This document shows positions 26,285 through 32,767 of a stretch of 64,000 bases of DNA, in pieces. Made by a program: the position numbers and the translations under genes. The stretch is from an uncultured Eubacteriales bacterium (GTDB lineage Bacteria; Bacillota; Clostridia; Peptostreptococcales; Anaerovoracaceae), in assembly GCA_900315485.1 (NCBI GenBank), contig OMZI01000001.1, positions 1 to 64,000 on the forward strand. The letters run 5' to 3'. The first letter of the stretch is position 1. Each line of letters opens with the position of its first letter. The notes under the pieces are model-generated. The model did not search any database, was not told the origin of the DNA, and saw nothing but the letters and a program-made list of their open reading frames with translations.

Positions 26285-26539
26285 ATGAGCAAGAACACTA
26301 TCATGTTCGAAGGATTCAAGGACAGCCAGCTTGATAAGAAAGAAGCTCTTGTAGAGATCTACACAGCTCTGACAGACCGCGGATACAACGCAGTTGATCA
26401 GATCGTAGGATATCTTACTTCAGGAGATCCTTCTTATATCACAAGCCACAATAATGCAAGAAACCTCATTCTCAAGATCGACAGAGACGAGCTTCTTGAA
26501 GAGATCCTTACAAGCTACCTCGGAATCAGCAAAAAGTAA
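26285..26539 (+). CDS. ireB: IreB/ReoM family regulatory phosphoprotein (UPF0297)
   Basis: An 84 aa protein. In enterococci and Listeria this family is phosphorylated by the PASTA kinase and controls ClpCP-dependent turnover of MurA, linking it to cell-wall synthesis. It begins MSKNTIMFEG and shows the family segments NAVDQIVGYLTSGDPSYITS and HNNARNLI. RBS TGGAGG. The stop TAA overlaps the ruvX start by one base. Confidence 0.92.
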   Translation: MSKNTIMFEGFKDSQLDKKEALVEIYTALTDRGYNAVDQIVGYLTSGDPSYITSHNNARNLILKIDRDELLEEILTSYLGISKK

Positions 26540-26985
26540 TGCGCATTCTCGGACTTGATGTAGGAGACAGAACAGTGGGGGTCGCGGTAAGCGACCCTCT
26601 TGGTATAATTGCGACAGGCGTTACGACTATCGAAAGAGTAGGCATCCGCAAGGATACGGGCAAAGTTATAGACTATATCCGCGAGTATGACTGCTCTAAA
26701 GTTGTCATGGGCCTGCCGCTTAATCTTGATGATTCGGATTCTGTTCAGACGGAGAAGGTGAGAGAGTTCAGAAGGATGCTGGAGAACAAGCTAAAGAGCT
26801 CCGGACCGCTCTCCAAGGTCACGATCGAGTGGCAGGATGAGAGATATTCGACAGCAGAAGCTGAAGAAGTGCTTATCGAAGCCAACATGAGCCGGGAAGA
26901 CAGAAAGAAGATCATCGACCGCCAGGCGGCGATCGTCATACTCCAGCGTTATCTTGACAGAATGCCGGCAGAGGAAAAGATATGA
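26539..26985 (+). CDS. ruvX: RuvX/YqgF family Holliday junction resolvase
   Basis: A 148 aa RNase H-fold nuclease associated with Holliday-junction or pre-16S rRNA processing. It has N-terminal RILGLDVGDRTVGVAVSD, the MGLPLN motif and ERYSTAEAE. It overlaps ireB (TAATG) and its own stop overlaps the LysR start (ATGA), so the LysR gene may be part of this operon. Confidence 0.93.
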   Translation: MRILGLDVGDRTVGVAVSDPLGIIATGVTTIERVGIRKDTGKVIDYIREYDCSKVVMGLPLNLDDSDSVQTEKVREFRRMLENKLKSSGPLSKVTIEWQDERYSTAEAEEVLIEANMSREDRKKIIDRQAAIVILQRYLDRMPAEEKI

Positions 26986-27890
26986 ACGACCTGCAGATAG
27001 ATTATTTCATGGCCGTTGCCACCAATCTCAGTTTTACCAGGACATCCGAGGAACTTTTCGTATCACAGCCTGCGATATCCAGGCAGATATCTCAGCTTGA
27101 AAAGGAGCTCGGAGCCAGGCTTTTCGTGAGGAACAATCAGAAGACAGAGCTTACCGAAGTCGGCAGGCTCTATTTTGAACTGTTCTCAAGATACAAGGCA
27201 GACCTTATAAACACCAAGGTCGAGGCTGACAGGATACTCGGAAAGAAGAAGGGCATGATGAGAGTAGGATTCCTCGAGGGCTGGGATCTGTTCGGCATAA
27301 TTCCCCCGATGATCGAGAGGTTCAATGAGGAGTATCCGGACATAGAGGTTGTCATCAACTGCTGCGGAGTCAAGGAACTTACGACTTCGCTTCTCAATGA
27401 CACTCTGGATGTTGTCGTGACCATGTCGAACTCGCTGAGCTCTTTCAGTGAATTCACTACAGCACCTGTTGCCGAGGTAAGAAAACTGCTTCTGTTCTCA
27501 AGCAATCACAGACTTGCAGGAAGAAGCGGTCTTACGCTCAAGGACTTCAGCGACGAAGTATTCATCGCTCCGTGGGAAATAGTCGACAAGATGATCGTCG
27601 AGACTATTGCCTCATATACAAGACCGTATGGATTCATACCTAAACTCAGATTCGTAAAAAATCATGAATCGACCATCACATGCGTACGAAATAACATGGG
27701 TGTGGCCATCGTCGATGAATGGGTATGGGCCAAGAACGCAGCTGACCTGAGGTGGATCCCTTTCAGGGCAATGGATGCGATATCTGTTGCCAGAATGAGC
27801 GCGAGGGAGAGCGAGCCTGTACTTGCAATGGAGCGGATCCTTAAAGAAGTTATAGACGAGCAGGAAAAACAAAAGGGAACAAGCCGCTAA
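26982..27890 (+). CDS. LysR-family transcriptional regulator
   Basis: A 302 aa regulator: N-terminal winged HTH (residues 1-60, FTRTSEELFVSQPAISRQIS) and a two-lobed co-inducer-binding domain (about 90-295). Family members bind a small effector and usually act on the adjacent genes. The downstream intergenic region has a perfect inverted repeat of LysR-box type ahead of the chalcone isomerase locus. It is therefore the likely local activator, with an aromatic effector as inference only. The 4-bp overlap with ruvX looks like an insertion behind a core operon. Confidence 0.88.
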   Translation: MNDLQIDYFMAVATNLSFTRTSEELFVSQPAISRQISQLEKELGARLFVRNNQKTELTEVGRLYFELFSRYKADLINTKVEADRILGKKKGMMRVGFLEGWDLFGIIPPMIERFNEEYPDIEVVINCCGVKELTTSLLNDTLDVVVTMSNSLSSFSEFTTAPVAEVRKLLLFSSNHRLAGRSGLTLKDFSDEVFIAPWEIVDKMIVETIASYTRPYGFIPKLRFVKNHESTITCVRNNMGVAIVDEWVWAKNAADLRWIPFRAMDAISVARMSARESEPVLAMERILKEVIDEQEKQKGTSR

Positions 27891-27905
27891 CCATTGAAAA
27901 TACTG

Positions 27906-27929
27906 ATTCATAACCAAATCGTTATGAAT
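27906..27929 (+). promoter_or_regulatory. Candidate LysR operator
   Basis: Perfect inverted repeat ATTCATAAC-CAAATC-GTTATGAAT (9-6-9). It fits the T-N11-A LysR pattern and lies 16 bp after the LysR gene and about 130 bp before the next start codon. Confidence 0.65.
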
Positions 27930-27968
27930 ATACGTGCATAATATCAATTATACTTAACAGGTATCATA

Positions 27969-27984
27969 GGATAGAATTCTATCC
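27969..27984 (+). promoter_or_regulatory. 16-bp perfect palindrome in the promoter region
   Basis: GGATAGAATTCTATCC, 8-bp arms with no spacer, 40 bp after the LysR-box-like repeat. It may be a second operator. A TATACT at 27949-27954 between the two is a possible -10 element with no good -35, as expected of an activated promoter. Confidence 0.4.
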
Positions 27985-28061
27985 AGGATATCTGTTCTTT
28001 TTTTAACAGAATTATTTCACAGCACAATTAATTCAAAAGTTTTTTGAAGGGAGAAACTATT

Positions 28062-28535
28062 ATGAAGAGTAAGAAACTCACAGCTGTATACGCACTTATC
28101 ATGGACCTGCCACTCAGTATCATCGTAACTGTCGTTGCGCTTGCACTCGGTGGCAATCTTAATATGCAGTCCTTTGTACCAAGCTGCATCCTGGCTTACG
28201 TAGTTACATTCATCCTTAATTTCCTGCCTGTAGGAAAGTGGGGCGTTGATTTCGCAATGAAGCATTCACAGCCTGGAACTCTTAAGTTCGGACTTCTCGT
28301 CAATGCTGTCATCGCACTCGTATTCACAATAGTGCTCGACCTCATCATGACATTCTTCGGAGTAGTACTTACTGCACACGCACCGATGAGCGAATACTTC
28401 AAGGCTGTACTCGGCGGATTCATCCCATGCTACATTGCATCTTTCATCGTAGCATTCATCTGGAATCCGGTTGCAGACAAGCTGTCCAGAAACATCTGCA
28501 ACGAGCCTGATCCAATGGCTCAGAAGCACGAGTAA
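28062..28535 (+). CDS. Four-TM membrane protein of unknown function
   Basis: A 157 aa protein with four hydrophobic helices arranged as two similar halves. Each half has a short N-terminal helix, a long polar loop and a P-x-[GC]-x-[IV] region (SFVPSCILAYVVTF and GGFIPCYIASFIVAF). It resembles small DUF2798-type membrane proteins but I cannot assign it firmly. Start ATG with GAAGGGAG upstream. First gene after the LysR operator, so it may transport or sense the substrate handled by the downstream enzymes. Confidence 0.6.
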   Translation: MKSKKLTAVYALIMDLPLSIIVTVVALALGGNLNMQSFVPSCILAYVVTFILNFLPVGKWGVDFAMKHSQPGTLKFGLLVNAVIALVFTIVLDLIMTFFGVVLTAHAPMSEYFKAVLGGFIPCYIASFIVAFIWNPVADKLSRNICNEPDPMAQKHE

Positions 28536-28664
28536 TCTGACAGTGACCACTTGTTAATGAGGTTAACTTAATAATTCACAGAACCGACTCAAAAACAGGT
28601 TTTTCCGATGTTATCATCGAAACAATAGTAGATATTTCATATTTATATTTTCAGGAGGGATAAT

Positions 28665-29657
28665 ATGAAAATTCTGGGAATTTCTTACGGAACCAAGAAC
28701 GGTAACAATGACACCATGTGCAGAGTAGCACTTGAAGAGTGCCAGAAGATGGGTGCTGAGATCGAATTCATACACGCTTTTGACTGGGATCTTCAGACAT
28801 GCACAGGCTGCGTTGCATGCTCAAGAGGACTTGTAATGGGCAAGGGCATGATCTGCACAAGAAAAGACGATTTCAAGGCTCTTTATGAGAAGATGGTAGA
28901 AGCTGACGGCGTTCTCATAGTAGACCCTATTTATGAATCCGGCGGATCCGGCCTCTTCCATATCTGCTGCGACCGTATGGGTCCTGGACACGATACAGGT
29001 ATGCTCATGATGCTCGACGGAAAACTCAAAGAGCAGGGCAAGGAAGGCCTGAATCCTCGTTACTTCATGCAGAAGGCTATTTCATTCGTTGGTATCGGCG
29101 GTTCTGACTGGGCTTGCCGCGTAGAGACTGACCATGCAATGCTTGCTATGTCCCCGGGCTGGAAGGTTATCAACAATGATTTCTTCTCCTGGAGTAAGGA
29201 TGTTCTCATGCAGGACGATAAGGTAGAGCGCATGAAGGAAATCGGCAGAAACCTTGTTGAGGCTGCTCAGTACATCATCGACAACCATGTTATGATTCCT
29301 GGTTCAGAGAATCTTGATCTCTGGAAGGGCGAAGCAGGCGGATGCCCGCACTGCCACGGCAACAACTTCTACATTTTCCCTGGCACAAATCATGCTGTAT
29401 GCGAGCTCTGCGGTCTTGAGGGTCACCTTGAAATGACAGACAACGGCATGAAGCTGGTAAACGATCCTGAACTTGGCGAAAACGGAACTATCGAACACTG
29501 CCACGATCTGCTTTCCGGCAAGGCTGCACACGGCAAGGACATCTTCGAGAATGAGGGCAGACTCATGAACCTCTTCAAGGATCCTGAGTTCAAGGCAAGA
29601 AAAGAGCACTACACAAGCGTGATTGCTCCTACACCATCCCCTTCAAAGGCACAGTAG
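28665..29657 (+). CDS. Flavodoxin-fold NAD(P)H-dependent reductase with C-terminal zinc ribbon
   Basis: A 330 aa protein. Residues 1-200 have the NADPH-dependent FMN reductase/flavodoxin fold: MKILGISYGTKNGNN for the FMN phosphate loop, CTGCVACSRG, and DGVLIVDPIYESGGSG. Residues about 225-255 form a zinc ribbon, CPHCHGNNFY...CELCG. As I recall, the gut-bacterial flavone reductase described from Flavonifractor plautii is a reductase of this fold class; with a chalcone isomerase next door a C=C reductase on a flavonoid-like substrate is plausible. The substrate is inference. RBS CAGGAGG; its own terminator follows, but the next gene is on the same strand 118 bp on. Confidence 0.75.
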   Translation: MKILGISYGTKNGNNDTMCRVALEECQKMGAEIEFIHAFDWDLQTCTGCVACSRGLVMGKGMICTRKDDFKALYEKMVEADGVLIVDPIYESGGSGLFHICCDRMGPGHDTGMLMMLDGKLKEQGKEGLNPRYFMQKAISFVGIGGSDWACRVETDHAMLAMSPGWKVINNDFFSWSKDVLMQDDKVERMKEIGRNLVEAAQYIIDNHVMIPGSENLDLWKGEAGGCPHCHGNNFYIFPGTNHAVCELCGLEGHLEMTDNGMKLVNDPELGENGTIEHCHDLLSGKAAHGKDIFENEGRLMNLFKDPEFKARKEHYTSVIAPTPSPSKAQ

Positions 29658-29674
29658 TTTATACAAGATAAGAT

Positions 29675-29703
29675 CAGGCAGGGGGATGAATTGCCCCTGC
29701 CTG
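29675..29703 (+). terminator. Terminator or attenuator after the reductase
   Basis: Strong stem CAGGCAGGGG(GA) / TGCCCCTGCCTG followed by CTTTTAT. It could set a lower level for the genes behind it. Confidence 0.8.
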
Positions 29704-29775
29704 CTTTTATACCATCATTTTCAGAGTGCCGTGACTGGGATTTCACAGCGCTCAGATCGAAAGGAGAATCATCTA

Positions 29776-30651
29776 ATGAACAGACCTGAGTTCTATCCGG
29801 TAAGAAGCCTTATCTATGTTGACCTCGCTCATGAGGATTACAGAATCAAGCTTGAGAACTGGCTGTACAGATACCATGTGCCAGACAGCATCTCACAGTT
29901 CGGACCATATGTAAGCAAGTACGCTTTCTATCCTGCACTCCCGACACCTCCGGGCGGAGAGAGATTCGGAACAGTAAGGATGCAGCTGACTGAGCACTAC
30001 TGGCTTGCAAATCCTAATGATGTAGGTTTTGCCAAGGATCATCACAAGGTCCTGACTGAGTACTTCCCTACAGACGTACTCGTATGGCAGAACAACATTC
30101 CTGACATGGGACATTCCCACGGCATCGACAAGGCCGAGGAAGTAAACATCGAGGGAGATGATGCAAGATCGACAAAGGGCGATGAGTCAATGGGAACAGT
30201 TCCTTTCATCTTTGCATTCGTACCTGTATGGTGGGAAGACGACTTCAAGGGCGAAGGCCGCACAGTAGAGGACGGACCTAACTACAGATGGCAGTTCATG
30301 GTCAGGTATCCTGAAGGCGTCAGCAAGGAAGAGGGCGACAAATGGCTCAAGGAAGAGTTCCTGCCTTCTATCTATGAGCACGAAGGATGCACACGCTGCG
30401 TATCCAGCCTTATTAAGAAGGAAGTCAACGGATGTGACTTTGACCGTGTCGTAGAGATGTGGTTCGAGTGCCAGACTGCATGGTGTGAAGCTGTTGCTGC
30501 AGCTGCTGAGAAGTGCGCTAAGCCTGCATGGGCTGAGACAGAGGACTTCCCGTACTTCAAGAAGTCCTACGGCATCAGCGGCATCTTCCTGTCAGACTAT
30601 GCAAGATCAGACAATCTCAACCAGTATCACGGATACATCACAATGAGATAA
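29776..30651 (+). CDS. Bacterial-type chalcone isomerase homologue
   Basis: A 291 aa protein that follows the Eubacterium ramulus chalcone isomerase over its whole length as I remember that sequence. Shared blocks are RSLIYVD near the start, HVPDSISQF (with His34, matching the proposed catalytic His), YAFYP, RMQLTEHYWL, a tryptophan-rich block near residue 155 (FVPVWWEDDFKGEGRT), and the end YHGYITMR. The bacterial enzyme interconverts naringenin chalcone and naringenin and is unrelated to plant CHI; it has a ferredoxin-like fold. ATG at 29776 with AGGAG upstream; the longer reading frame upstream is rejected. It is flanked by a flavodoxin-fold reductase and an LVIVD protein, consistent with flavonoid breakdown. 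Confidence 0.85.
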   Translation: MNRPEFYPVRSLIYVDLAHEDYRIKLENWLYRYHVPDSISQFGPYVSKYAFYPALPTPPGGERFGTVRMQLTEHYWLANPNDVGFAKDHHKVLTEYFPTDVLVWQNNIPDMGHSHGIDKAEEVNIEGDDARSTKGDESMGTVPFIFAFVPVWWEDDFKGEGRTVEDGPNYRWQFMVRYPEGVSKEEGDKWLKEEFLPSIYEHEGCTRCVSSLIKKEVNGCDFDRVVEMWFECQTAWCEAVAAAAEKCAKPAWAETEDFPYFKKSYGISGIFLSDYARSDNLNQYHGYITMR

Positions 30652-30659
30652 AGTATTTC

Positions 30660-30676
30660 CGGAGGTTTTGCCTCCG
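30660..30676 (+). other. Small intergenic hairpin
   Basis: CGGAGG-TTTTG-CCTCCG between the isomerase and the LVIVD gene. It masks no RBS and may stabilise the upstream mRNA. Confidence 0.35.
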
Positions 30677-30694
30677 AACACAAAGGAGACTTAA

Positions 30695-32086
30695 ATGGGC
30701 AAAGGAAAATATTTCTATTCGAAGGGTGAGGGAAACGACGGTTACATCAAGAACCTTGAGGTGCTCTCATACTGCGATATGGACGGCACATGCGGAATGT
30801 TCCAGATGGGACTTTACCGTACAGAAGCCGGAAGATATCTGCTTTATGGAGCCTGCTTCGCAGCAGGTCCTGAAGGCGTAGGTATCATGATCAGTGATGT
30901 TACTGATCCGAGGAATCCGGTCTTCATCAAGAAGTGGCGCCCGTTCGATATCGAGGAGTATCCTACAACATCTATCCCTAAGCTCCAGATAGCAGATGAC
31001 AAGCTCATCTTCGCTCTTACATCCGGATCCGGCCCTGCCGTTCTGGTTGGCGACAGAGATAAGATGAAGAGCCTTCAGGGCATCATGATCTATGACCTCA
31101 AGAATGATCCTGAGAACCCTGAATACCTCGGCTACTGGGACTGCGGAGTTCCTTATTCGATGGGCGTTCACAGATTCATGTACAACGGAGGGGACTACGT
31201 ACATCTGTCATCAGAAGCTGACGAGTTCGAAGGACTCATCTACAGGATCGTGAGCATCAAGGACCCGGCCAATCCGGTCGAGGTAGGCCGCTGGTGGGCA
31301 CCTCATCAGTACATCTACGGTGTACCTGGAAGAGAGGTAGACCACTCAGCACCTCACAATCCTGACTTCATGGACAAAGGCTGGCTGCACGGACCTCCGT
31401 TCGTAGTAGGCGACAAGGTATACTGCGGATACTGCGGAGACGGACTGTATGTTCTGGATATTTCAGATATCCATCATCCTAAGGCACTTGGCAACCTGAA
31501 GTTCATGCCTGCTTTCTCGAGCAGACTCGCAGGAGCAAGGACTCATACTGCACTTCCTCTTGTCGGAAGAGACCTCGTAGTAGTCACCAATGAAGGAGAG
31601 AGATTCGGCTTCATAAAGGACGGCGTTGTAACACAGGCGCAGGCCATGAACAACCTGCACATGGTAGATGTAAGTGATCCGACCAACCCTGTGCTGATCG
31701 CAGAGTTCCCGTATCCTGAAGTTCCTGAGGATTTCCCTGCACCGAACTTCAACACATACATGCTTGCTGAAGGATCAAAGGGCGGACCTTTCGGACCTCA
31801 CAACGTTCACGAGCCTATGAGCAACAAGCCATGGCTTGAGCAGAGAAACGATGTAGTTTATGACTGCTATTTCGCAGCCGGACTCAGGATCTATGACGTT
31901 TCCGATCCTTTCTACATCAAGGAGAAGGCATACTTCATTCCTCCGAATCCGACCAAGAAGTGCTTCCCGTTCCCTGGCCCTATGATGGCAATGACAGAGG
32001 ACGTTGTCGTAGACGACAGAGGCAACATCATCATCGATGCTAACAGCGACGGATTCTACATCCTCAGAAAGACATACGAGGACTAG
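30695..32086 (+). CDS. LVIVD-type beta-propeller protein
   Basis: A 463 aa protein with at least five repeats of the V-x-D-[VI]-[ST]-DP-x-NP type (ISDVTDPRNPVF, SIKDPANPVEVG, LDISDIHHPKALG, MVDVSDPTNPVLIAEF, IYDVSDPFYIKEKAYF). This marks the LVIVD repeat propeller. There is no signal peptide, so it is cytoplasmic, unlike many LVIVD proteins. It contains many His residues and a conserved-looking HNVHEP. RBS AAAGGAG. It is last in the putative flavonoid unit and has a strong terminator after it. No enzymatic role is known to me; its context suggests a substrate-binding or lyase role. Confidence 0.75.
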   Translation: MGKGKYFYSKGEGNDGYIKNLEVLSYCDMDGTCGMFQMGLYRTEAGRYLLYGACFAAGPEGVGIMISDVTDPRNPVFIKKWRPFDIEEYPTTSIPKLQIADDKLIFALTSGSGPAVLVGDRDKMKSLQGIMIYDLKNDPENPEYLGYWDCGVPYSMGVHRFMYNGGDYVHLSSEADEFEGLIYRIVSIKDPANPVEVGRWWAPHQYIYGVPGREVDHSAPHNPDFMDKGWLHGPPFVVGDKVYCGYCGDGLYVLDISDIHHPKALGNLKFMPAFSSRLAGARTHTALPLVGRDLVVVTNEGERFGFIKDGVVTQAQAMNNLHMVDVSDPTNPVLIAEFPYPEVPEDFPAPNFNTYMLAEGSKGGPFGPHNVHEPMSNKPWLEQRNDVVYDCYFAAGLRIYDVSDPFYIKEKAYFIPPNPTKKCFPFPGPMMAMTEDVVVDDRGNIIIDANSDGFYILRKTYED

Positions 32087-32162
32087 TCAGATATAATCCG
32101 TTTGAGGACTGGTCATGACGATTGATAAAAGGGGTATTCCGATACCGTTTATCACTTAAGAA

Positions 32163-32191
32163 GCGGCAGCTTTCGGGCTGCCGCAAATTTT
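32163..32191 (+). terminator. Terminator of the chalcone isomerase-LVIVD unit
   Basis: Perfect stem GCGGCAGC / GCTGCCGC, 6-nt loop, followed by AAATTTTT. Confidence 0.92.
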
Positions 32192-32269
32192 TAGGATTAT
32201 AGAAATGACCATTCCGGATCAATTTGCGGAGAAATACAGACAGAAAAACTGATATTAAGGTAATCAAAA

Positions 32270-32767
32270 ATGGACAGCAAGAAAAAGGAAGTACTTACAC
32301 TGGCAGTTCTGATAGCCATACTTCCGCCTATATGGGCGGTTGCAAGCCCGTACCTCGGAAATACGGTAGGACCTATCGCTCTTATCGCAGCAGGTATCTA
32401 CGGGACCAACGGCAACAAGTTCGAAGATGCGCACAAGATAGCTCTCGGATATCTCGCGGGAGACATATGGGCTCTTATATGCACTCTGGTAATGGCTCAT
32501 ACGCCGTTTAACGCCGATCTGACGCTGTTTTGCCTGCTCGCAGTACTCGGATTCCTTGTTGTCATAATTTCGATGAGAATCCCGCATATAATCCATATGC
32601 CGTCATGGCTTGCAGGATGGGCGATCGGTATGCTGACCATGAATCTCGACAAGACGACGCCTGTCATGAGCCTGACAGTACAGATCGCAGTGGCAATGCT
32701 TGTAGGCGTATACTACGTAGGCGCTCTGCTCGACAAGATACACAGGATCTGGAACGGGAAAAAGTAG
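32270..32767 (+). CDS. DUF1097-like inner membrane protein
   Basis: A 165 aa protein with about five hydrophobic helices: LAVLIAILPPIWAVASPYLG, then IALIAAGIYG, YLAGDIWALICTLVMA, LFCLLAVLGFLVVIIS and SLTVQIAVAMLVGVYYVGALL. Composition and size fit the DUF1097 membrane family, some members of which sit beside transporters. No RBS better than GATATTAAGGT is visible. It lies after the terminator of the isomerase unit and may belong functionally to it as a permease component; this is only context. Confidence 0.55.
   Translation: MDSKKKEVLTLAVLIAILPPIWAVASPYLGNTVGPIALIAAGIYGTNGNKFEDAHKIALGYLAGDIWALICTLVMAHTPFNADLTLFCLLAVLGFLVVIISMRIPHIIHMPSWLAGWAIGMLTMNLDKTTPVMSLTVQIAVAMLVGVYYVGALLDKIHRIWNGKK

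Follow-up and report, generated by a model that had tools for sequence, protein, structure and literature searches.

Positions 26982-32767 of the window, the 64,000-nucleotide stretch of DNA analysed here, hold six open and collinear genes, which encode in order a LysR-family regulator, a small membrane protein, a relative of flavone/flavonol reductase (FLR), a bacterial chalcone isomerase (CHI), an LVIVD-repeat protein and a DUF1097 membrane protein (Table 1). The flavonoid-catabolism locus that the original prediction had placed here is thus supported, and its 291 aa isomerase starts where proposed, at ATG 29776, the TTG 29623 start in the list of open reading frames being over-long. Judged from its sequence, the locus is best explained as a LysR-controlled gene set for the reductive breakdown of flavones or flavonols, in a bacterium of the ruminant-gut kind.

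Table 1. Genes and sequence features of the locus, in window coordinates
Feature	Position	Strand	Evidence
LysR-family regulator, 302 aa	26982..27890	+	Pfam HTH_1 73.6 bits (cut-off 26.6), LysR_substrate 71.2 bits
LysR-type operator, perfect 9-nt inverted repeat, 6-nt spacer	27906..27929	.	ATTCATAAC-N6-GTTATGAAT
Small membrane protein, 157 aa, DUF2798-like	28062..28535	+	ORF (ATG 28062); sole Pfam match DUF2798, 19.1 bits, below cut-off 23.5
FLR relative, 330 aa	28665..29657	+	E 3e-78 to 7d38
Hairpin between FLR and CHI	29668..29710	+	17-nt arms, 88% paired
Bacterial chalcone isomerase (CHI), 291 aa	29776..30651	+	E 4.9e-93 to 4d06; Pfam Chalcone_N 171.9 bits (cut-off 25)
LVIVD-repeat protein, 463 aa; candidate for auronol cleavage	30695..32086	+	Pfam LVIVD 35.1 bits (cut-off 20.2)
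Intrinsic-terminator-like hairpin 3' of LVIVD	32163..32184	+	9 pairs, 7 G-C, then AAATTTTTAG
DUF1097 membrane protein, 165 aa	32270..32767	+	Pfam 72.5 bits (cut-off 24.6)

For comparison, the best 80 of 152 CHI relatives were taken, comprising 26 close loci with CHI 85-100% identical (L011-L033, L039, L040, L058) and 54 distant ones; genes at each locus were counted from tblastn tables, because a first gene clustering had missed genes at some loci. The perfect operator of the original prediction follows the regulator gene, whose ATG overlaps the 3' end of an upstream open reading frame (26539-26985). The operator core, ATAAC-N6-GTTAT, is conserved without a mismatch in 23 of the 24 spacers between LysR and membrane-protein genes found among these best 80 of 152 relatives, the window included; it appears in 0.06% of mononucleotide-shuffled spacers and occurs 28 times across 826 kb of L011-L058. 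Within the same best 80 of 152, LysR is matched at 20 of the 26 close loci and the small membrane protein at 22, the four others having sequence that begins inside or just before FLR, while the DUF1097 protein, possibly a permease, is present at 21 close and 10 of the 54 distant loci. The hairpin between FLR and CHI may be a weak terminator; it contains a terminator-like scan hit (29681-29698), and such hits in this region are not above chance frequency.

Homologues of two flavonoid enzymes

The isomerase matches the Eubacterium ramulus enzyme (PDB 4d06) over residues 5-291, a full-length homology with 136 of 279 aligned residues identical. The histidine of its HVPDSISQF motif aligns with His33 of that enzyme, and the catalytic pair His33 and Asp36 is kept as H34 and D37. 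The match of the FLR relative to 7d38 spans residues 1-323, C-terminal part included, with 137 of 305 residues identical; 7d38-7d3b are the Flavonifractor plautii FLR entries (PMC7862272). Eight of nine published residues are kept (I89, E91, D103, G106, S147, W149, H271 and I275, with K92 replaced by S), among them G106, W149, H271 and I275, the four positions at which substitution greatly lowered activity (PMC7862272). Both kinships, proposed when the locus was first described, are right by sequence, with most published active-site residues kept in each protein.

The F. plautii reductase itself came out of a set of 14 genes associated with chi or phy (tags A4U99_05915 and A4U99_05920; PMC7862272), and FLR and CHI adjoin in the F. 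plautii locus as well. The pairing of the two enzymes is thus already known, and the LVIVD protein is the new part. Identities of 49% (CHI) and 45% (FLR) to the assayed enzymes leave some room for a locus serving another aromatic substrate, with the flavonoid homologies misleading; against such distance stand two consecutive flavonoid enzymes encoded side by side, full-length matches, active-site residues largely kept and, at one distant locus (L054), phloroglucinol-cluster-type genes near CHI, and we consider this reading very improbable.

The LVIVD protein and its link to chalcone isomerase

A comparison of gene neighbourhoods, suggested with the original prediction, found LVIVD at all 26 close and at 26 of the 54 distant CHI loci (best 80 of 152 relatives); at 24 of these distant loci it lies within 3 kb of CHI, and two Leptolinea records (Chloroflexota) are among the 26. 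At the genome level, L043, L070, L089 and L090 were set aside and the other 50 distant loci lie in 49 CHI genomes; drawn as they are from the best 80 of 152 relatives, 43 of these genomes, E. ramulus included, have a strong LVIVD match, two of these matches being incomplete where a contig end cuts or splits them (G421, G425), and six have none. In an evenly drawn sample of 391 genomes from the class, strong LVIVD matches occurred only in CHI carriers (4/4; Fisher 1.6e-8, our p-values taking no account of relatedness or truncated loci). Two of the six CHI genomes there are without LVIVD (G163, and G226 with its weak CHI match), and of nine LVIVD matches the five at 22 bits or less, none with a CHI match, were not called strong. 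An evenly drawn sample of 398 genomes likewise had its strong matches solely in CHI carriers (3/3), leaving uncounted, from 11 LVIVD genomes, three at 128-131 bits and five at 29.5 or less, none with a CHI match; the two samples overlap, both include the window's own genome, and G355 and G810 are apparently assemblies of L041 and L053. This link in distant taxa bears out the earlier view of LVIVD as a new component.

The family is not flavonoid-specific, since more distant relatives that share its four histidines turn up in two genomes with no CHI hit (L179, L181) and, in Sinorhizobium, beside unrelated genes; a Rahnella relative also has unrelated neighbours. The pathway may be under-counted, given the names in the two annotated records examined: 'hypothetical protein' (a C. 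difficile plasmid) and 'LVIVD repeat-containing protein' (the distant Rahnella relative).

An alignment of the window protein with 22 relatives at 40-89% identity gave an LVIVD-repeat match at E 0.01 or better in all 23 sequences, and throughout it H159, H232, H284, H369, E300, E410 and R398 are invariant. They are also kept in three more distant relatives (L180, at 20% identity and apparently in the wrong reading frame, was excluded from the count), and they look catalytic. By sequence spacing the histidines fall one per interval in four successive intervals between blade motifs, in keeping with a predicted propeller fold whose channel the four histidines would line as a metal centre. Propellers are often binding modules, and a single-sequence search for solved structures near LVIVD found no credible relative, both of which would suit a non-enzyme: a binding, scaffold or sensing protein for CHI or the regulator. 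The catalytic look of the invariant residues argues against this, as does, with little weight at such a distance, the only credible solved relative in a profile search, a hydrolase (5hrm, with E 8.8e-11 for the whole sequence and 0.044 for its best single stretch); we regard a non-enzymatic role as quite unlikely.

A candidate for auronol cleavage

The route that we favour begins with a flavone or flavonol, whose C2-C3 bond FLR would reduce, after which CHI would open a flavanone, or contract the ring of a flavanonol such as taxifolin to give an auronol (alphitonin). The LVIVD protein, through its predicted four-histidine metal centre, would then act on the auronol in its ring-opened diketone form, splitting it into phloroglucinol and an arylpyruvate. 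In relatives, the linked 2-oxoacid:ferredoxin oxidoreductase (Kor or Ior), phosphotransbutyrylase-like (Ptb) and butyrate-kinase-like (Buk) proteins would convert the arylpyruvate through arylacetyl-CoA to arylacetate, with recovery of ATP. As a whole we hold this explanation to be, on balance, probable. Counting against it are the CHI genomes that lack LVIVD (six of the 49, and two of the six in the class sample) and the CHI locus of Clostridium puniceum (L046), which has Ior but no LVIVD, Ptb or Buk within reach. Compared with the original prediction, CHI is not restricted to opening or closing a chalcone, as flavonols are likely substrates too and CHI may contract flavanonols to auronols; the uptake proposed there for the small membrane proteins is putative.

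Fcr acts on flavanones without needing CHI (PMC11868195); CHI and what tracks it would therefore point to the auronol branch. From the chemistry, the flavanonol-auronol route alone would be expected to yield a 2-oxo acid, and an arylpyruvate intermediate has already been suggested (PMC11170127). Catenibacillus scindens and C. decagia turn quercetin into an aryllactate or an arylacetate, according to the same paper. In the literature on auronol or alphitonin hydrolase or cleavage (PMC11170127, PMC13206288), the accessible part of PMC11170127 names no enzyme, and a 2025 paper still credits auronol cleavage, on the route from taxifolin through alphitonin to 3,4-dihydroxyphenylacetate, to "an unknown enzyme" (PMC12203004). 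As one family that accompanies CHI in Bacillota and Chloroflexota alike, LVIVD is a direct and strong candidate for this step; the searchable literature joining LVIVD and flavonoid amounts to a cardamom rat study.

Oxidoreductase genes together with Ptb- and/or Buk-like genes occur at 11 of the 54 distant CHI loci (best 80 of 152), nine of which have LVIVD and two (L047, L052) a phloretin-hydrolase-like (PHY-like) protein instead; this linkage suggests that the aryl side chain can yield ATP. The indolepyruvate oxidoreductase cut-off is exceeded by three Ior alpha subunits; the score of Kor is that of a branched-chain 2-oxoacid enzyme (VorB), so that its use of arylpyruvate is putative. The window's genome carries Kor, Ior, Ptb-like and Buk-like genes on other contigs, and a search of it for the phloroglucinol ring-opening cyclase (no positive control; 86% complete MAG) found none.

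With FLR and CHI acting on flavonoids, LVIVD might instead perform another step of the same branch, on a chalcone, flavanone or methylated or glycosylated auronol, leaving C-C cleavage to PHY-like enzymes. LVIVD and a PHY-like protein do adjoin in C. puniceum (L143), and 23 of the 49 CHI genomes have both LVIVD and PF18089. A further 20, however, have LVIVD without a PF18089 match, and the two LVIVD-less loci of arylpyruvate type (L047, L052) have the PHY-like protein in its place; we rate this alternative as somewhat unlikely. The PF18089 search found no match in the window's own genome (86% complete) and matches in 28 of the 49 CHI genomes, that in G409 being weak. Strict replacement of LVIVD by PHY was considered and rejected. 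The PHY-like query and LVIVD never share one of the 54 distant CHI loci (best 80 of 152), yet mutual exclusion across the 49 CHI genomes is not significant (Fisher p 0.22), the query is a 211-aa PHY-like family with no PF18089 match at 1e-5 (hhalign probability 95.4%), and adjoining genes in C. puniceum indicate that the two are not simple substitutes.

The fullest form of the favoured route, in which LVIVD is the missing auronol-cleaving enzyme and, with its four-histidine centre, a new kind of C-C hydrolase, working with CHI, the oxidoreductase and Ptb/Buk in a fermentation that yields phloroglucinol, arylacetate, reduced ferredoxin and ATP, is a serious possibility that falls just short of probable. 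If true, flavonol breakdown would be an energy-conserving fermentation.

Comparison with known systems

The window CHI resembles the E. ramulus enzyme (PDB 3zph, 4d06, 8b7u) over its full length and keeps His33, Asp36, His73, Glu91 and Gln101; it differs in being 49% identical, in aligning Pro80 with Asp79 and Lys134 with Arg125, and in loops longer by three and five residues, the second of them in the lid region. The F. plautii FLR (PDB 7d38-7d3b) shares a full-length match, eight of nine residues and an adjoining CHI, whereas the window FLR is 45% identical, has Ser for Lys92 and bears several insertions before the C-terminal part; the E. ramulus copy is its closer match, at 74% identity. 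Haloalkylphosphorus hydrolase (PDB 5hrm, 5ioj) provides the only credible solved relatives of LVIVD by profile (E 8.8e-11 and 2.1e-10 over the whole sequence), but just short repeat stretches align (E 0.044 for the best one), no pathway is common to the two, and function is not transferable over such a distance. With the phloretin hydrolase/DAPG hydrolase family (PF18089), LVIVD would share an analogous reaction, cleavage of an acyl-phloroglucinol C-C bond, but it is no member, as all 23 sequences score as LVIVD repeats and leave PF18089 unmatched. Finally, the flr-fcr-phy genes of C. butyricum (PMC11868195, from the text available) likewise place FLR within a compact flavonoid gene set; phy is present there and no CHI was found, whereas the window's genome (86% complete) has no PHY match and the window itself carries CHI together with LVIVD.

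The locus and its flavonoid enzymes

The six genes between 26982 and 32767, for a LysR regulator, a small membrane protein, flavone reductase (FLR), chalcone isomerase (CHI), an LVIVD-repeat protein (LVIVD) and a DUF1097 protein, are all open and collinear, and belong to a metagenome-assembled genome of 2.52 Mb that is 85.6% complete. They follow two genes that we take to encode alanyl-tRNA synthetase and RuvX, and the same two genes, so taken, lie upstream in many relatives. The original prediction of a flavonoid-catabolism locus described a real unit and was largely right in its interpretation, both in the homology of CHI and FLR and in naming LVIVD as a new component. The 291-aa protein at 29776 matches Eubacterium ramulus CHI over its full length, as foreseen (E 4.9e-93; 136 of 279 aligned residues identical), and retains the active-site residues His33, Asp36, His73, Glu91, Gln101, Ile12, Phe135 and Phe137, whereas Asp79 and Arg125 of E. 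ramulus correspond to Pro80 and Lys134, both near loops of unequal length (roles after the accessible part of PMC9694015). The 330-aa reductase at 28665, assigned by fold to the gut flavone reductases, likewise proved a full-length match to the Flavonifractor plautii enzyme (E 3e-78; 137/305 identical), sharing Ile89, Glu91, Asp103, Gly106, Ser147, Trp149, His271 and Ile275 but carrying Ser for Lys92 (key residues as in the available text of PMC7862272).

Among the best 80 of 152 CHI relatives, the nearest named are uncultured Clostridiales RUG12387 bins (100%; RUG presumably denoting rumen genomes), with goat and sheep gut Mogibacterium sp. bins more distant. At three loci in other genomes (L068, L083, L088) FLR is 82-84% identical to window 28665-29657 and CHI just 51-53%, a disparity that suggests transfer of FLR alone. 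Across the 26 close loci (L011-L033, L039, L040, L058; CHI 85-100% identical to the window's, mostly 88-94%), FLR identity is 93-98% or 77-83%, with one at 89%, and LVIVD falls into groups of 95-99% or 86-90% that do not coincide with those of FLR; from these identities the locus looks mosaic.

The supposed perfect operator is indeed an inverted repeat without mismatch, downstream of the LysR gene. Of the 24 available LysR-to-membrane-protein spacers, window included, 23 carry its core, ATAAC-N6-GTTAT, unaltered; this core occurs 28 times in the 826 kb of L011-L058 and appears in 0.06% of mononucleotide-shuffled spacers; the outer arms co-vary in several relatives, keeping the palindrome.

A predicted propeller protein that accompanies chalcone isomerase

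A single-sequence search for solved structures returned no credible relative of LVIVD, and the sole hit of a profile search was to haloalkylphosphorus hydrolase, at E 8.8e-11 for the whole sequence and 0.044 for the best single stretch; all 23 aligned sequences, the window's included, score as LVIVD repeats. His159, His232, His284 and His369 are invariant, one in each interval between successive blade motifs, as are Glu300, Glu410 and Arg398, and three more distant relatives retain all seven. By sequence spacing, the histidine pattern of LVIVD resembles that of propeller enzymes in which four histidines bind a metal, such as carotenoid oxygenases.

LVIVD had been proposed as a new component, and its link to CHI holds by position, by genome and in evenly drawn samples. 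Among the best 80 of 152 CHI loci, it is present at 26/26 close and 26/54 distant loci, and within 3 kb of CHI at 24 of those 26 distant ones; many CHI loci are truncated, with more than 5 kb either side of CHI in 30 of the 54. The comparison of gene neighbourhoods suggested at the outset places LVIVD at CHI loci in distant taxa, two of these loci being from Leptolinea, of the phylum Chloroflexota. Fifty of the 54 distant loci come from 49 genomes, and 43 of these have an LVIVD match with an E of at most 5.8e-75, two of the matches being partial, at contig ends, and that of E. ramulus lying on a different contig from CHI; of the six genomes lacking it, five have a match to PF18089, the phloretin hydrolase (PHY) family, and one has neither. 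In two overlapping even samples, both including the window's own genome and uncorrected for relatedness, strong LVIVD matches occurred in four of 391 genomes of the class, all CHI-positive (Fisher 1.6e-8; two of the six CHI genomes lacked one), and in three of 398 of the phylum, exactly the three with CHI. Distant LVIVD relatives in Sinorhizobium and Rahnella are surrounded by unrelated genes.

A Clostridioides difficile plasmid (pZ1322HCD0102-2, a 163 kb record; L190, 55826-73187) carries a putative LVIVD-FLR-DUF1097-CHI order, with a LysR gene beside it, resembling that of L066/L070. Its LVIVD is assigned by match and its presumed CHI by position, both being annotated as hypothetical proteins.

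Hydrolase-like proteins and neighbouring genes

No PHY was found in the window's own genome, at its 85.6% completeness. A PHY-like protein of about 210 aa occurs at CHI or LVIVD loci elsewhere, adjoining LVIVD in Clostridium puniceum; a profile comparison connects it with PF18089 (95.4%, E 1.6e-8), and a single-sequence scan at 1e-5 gave no match. Judged by sequence, this short family is possibly a second one that cleaves auronols or dihydrochalcones. Two Oscillospiraceae bins encode a PF18089 domain fused to a flavoprotein.

Features at the locus and in relatives
Feature	Position	Strand	Basis
Operator inverted repeat	window 27906-27929
Terminator-like hairpin after LVIVD	window 32163-32184		terminator scan; regional hits no commoner than chance
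PHY-like, ~210 aa	L047:6380-7012
PHY-like, ~210 aa	L051:5378-5995
PHY-like, ~210 aa	L052:8038-8655
PHY-like, ~210 aa	L054:9338-9958
PHY-like, ~210 aa	L067:526-1155
PHY-like, ~210 aa	L143:9047-9670
PF18089 behind fumarate-reductase-type flavoprotein	L134:1477-3555	minus	Pfam: FAD_binding_2, Succ_DH_flav_C, DAPG_hydrolase
PF18089 behind fumarate-reductase-type flavoprotein	L136:1480-3621	minus	from translation
~233-aa protein 5' of Kor genes	L018:12221-12922
~233-aa protein 5' of Kor genes	L173:6980-7738

Genes for 2-oxoacid:ferredoxin-type oxidoreductases (Kor, Ior) with phosphotransbutyrylase-like (Ptb) and/or butyrate kinase-like (Buk) genes stand at 11 of the 54 distant CHI loci (best 80 of 152), nine with LVIVD and two (L047, L052) with a 211-aa PHY-like protein; uncorrected for relatedness or truncation, the hypergeometric probability is 0.0009 for either protein at all 11 and 0.014 for LVIVD at at least nine. 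At another two distant loci the oxidoreductase stands without Ptb/Buk; L035 has LVIVD, L046 does not. Ior-type alpha subunits at L046 and L069 score 719.5 and 673.7 against an indolepyruvate oxidoreductase cut-off of 650.9; at L018, where Kor genes and one NTPase-like gene lie directly 3' of LVIVD, the Kor-type alpha subunit scores as VorB (423.3 against 399). The window's own genome has KorA (92% to the L018 copy) on another contig than the locus, with a Buk-like gene (38%) about 3 kb away, and Ior (705.8 bits, above the cut-off) and a Ptb-like gene (48%) on two further contigs. Several loci have, just before the Kor genes in gene order, a gene for a roughly 233-aa protein in which a stretch looks P-loop-like by eye; the L018 copy matches nothing in NCBIfam or Pfam. 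L054 also encodes a cyclase, a beta-keto acid cleavage enzyme, a short-chain dehydrogenase and a 3-hydroxyacyl-CoA dehydrogenase, matching the composition of the phloroglucinol cluster described in the accessible part of PMC10470551; no phloroglucinol cyclase was found in the window's own genome (85.6% complete).

A proposed auronol route

Ior-type oxidoreductases would convert arylpyruvates to arylacetyl-CoA, from which Ptb/Buk-type enzymes would yield arylacetate and ATP. Because LVIVD tracks CHI and sits among such genes, it is best read as an auronol-cleaving enzyme. CHI, which turns flavanonols into auronols (PMC9694015, in part), would supply alphitonin; LVIVD would cleave this to phloroglucinol and 3,4-dihydroxyphenylpyruvate, the latter suggested as a cleavage product beside phloroglucinol in the accessible text of PMC11170127; and the arylpyruvate would pass through Ior to arylacetyl-CoA and through Ptb/Buk to arylacetate with a gain of ATP. 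The auronol branch is favoured over the flavanone branch since the latter, via phloretin, would, we infer, give no 2-oxo acid, and Fcr acts there without need of CHI, as far as the available part of PMC11868195 goes. The alphitonin-cleaving enzyme was termed unknown in the accessible part of a 2025 paper (PMC12203004), and our search of mostly open literature found no paper naming it. The FLR-CHI pair itself was already known, being adjacent in F. plautii (L062) as in the window; what is new here is the link between LVIVD and CHI, together with the proposed arylpyruvate route.
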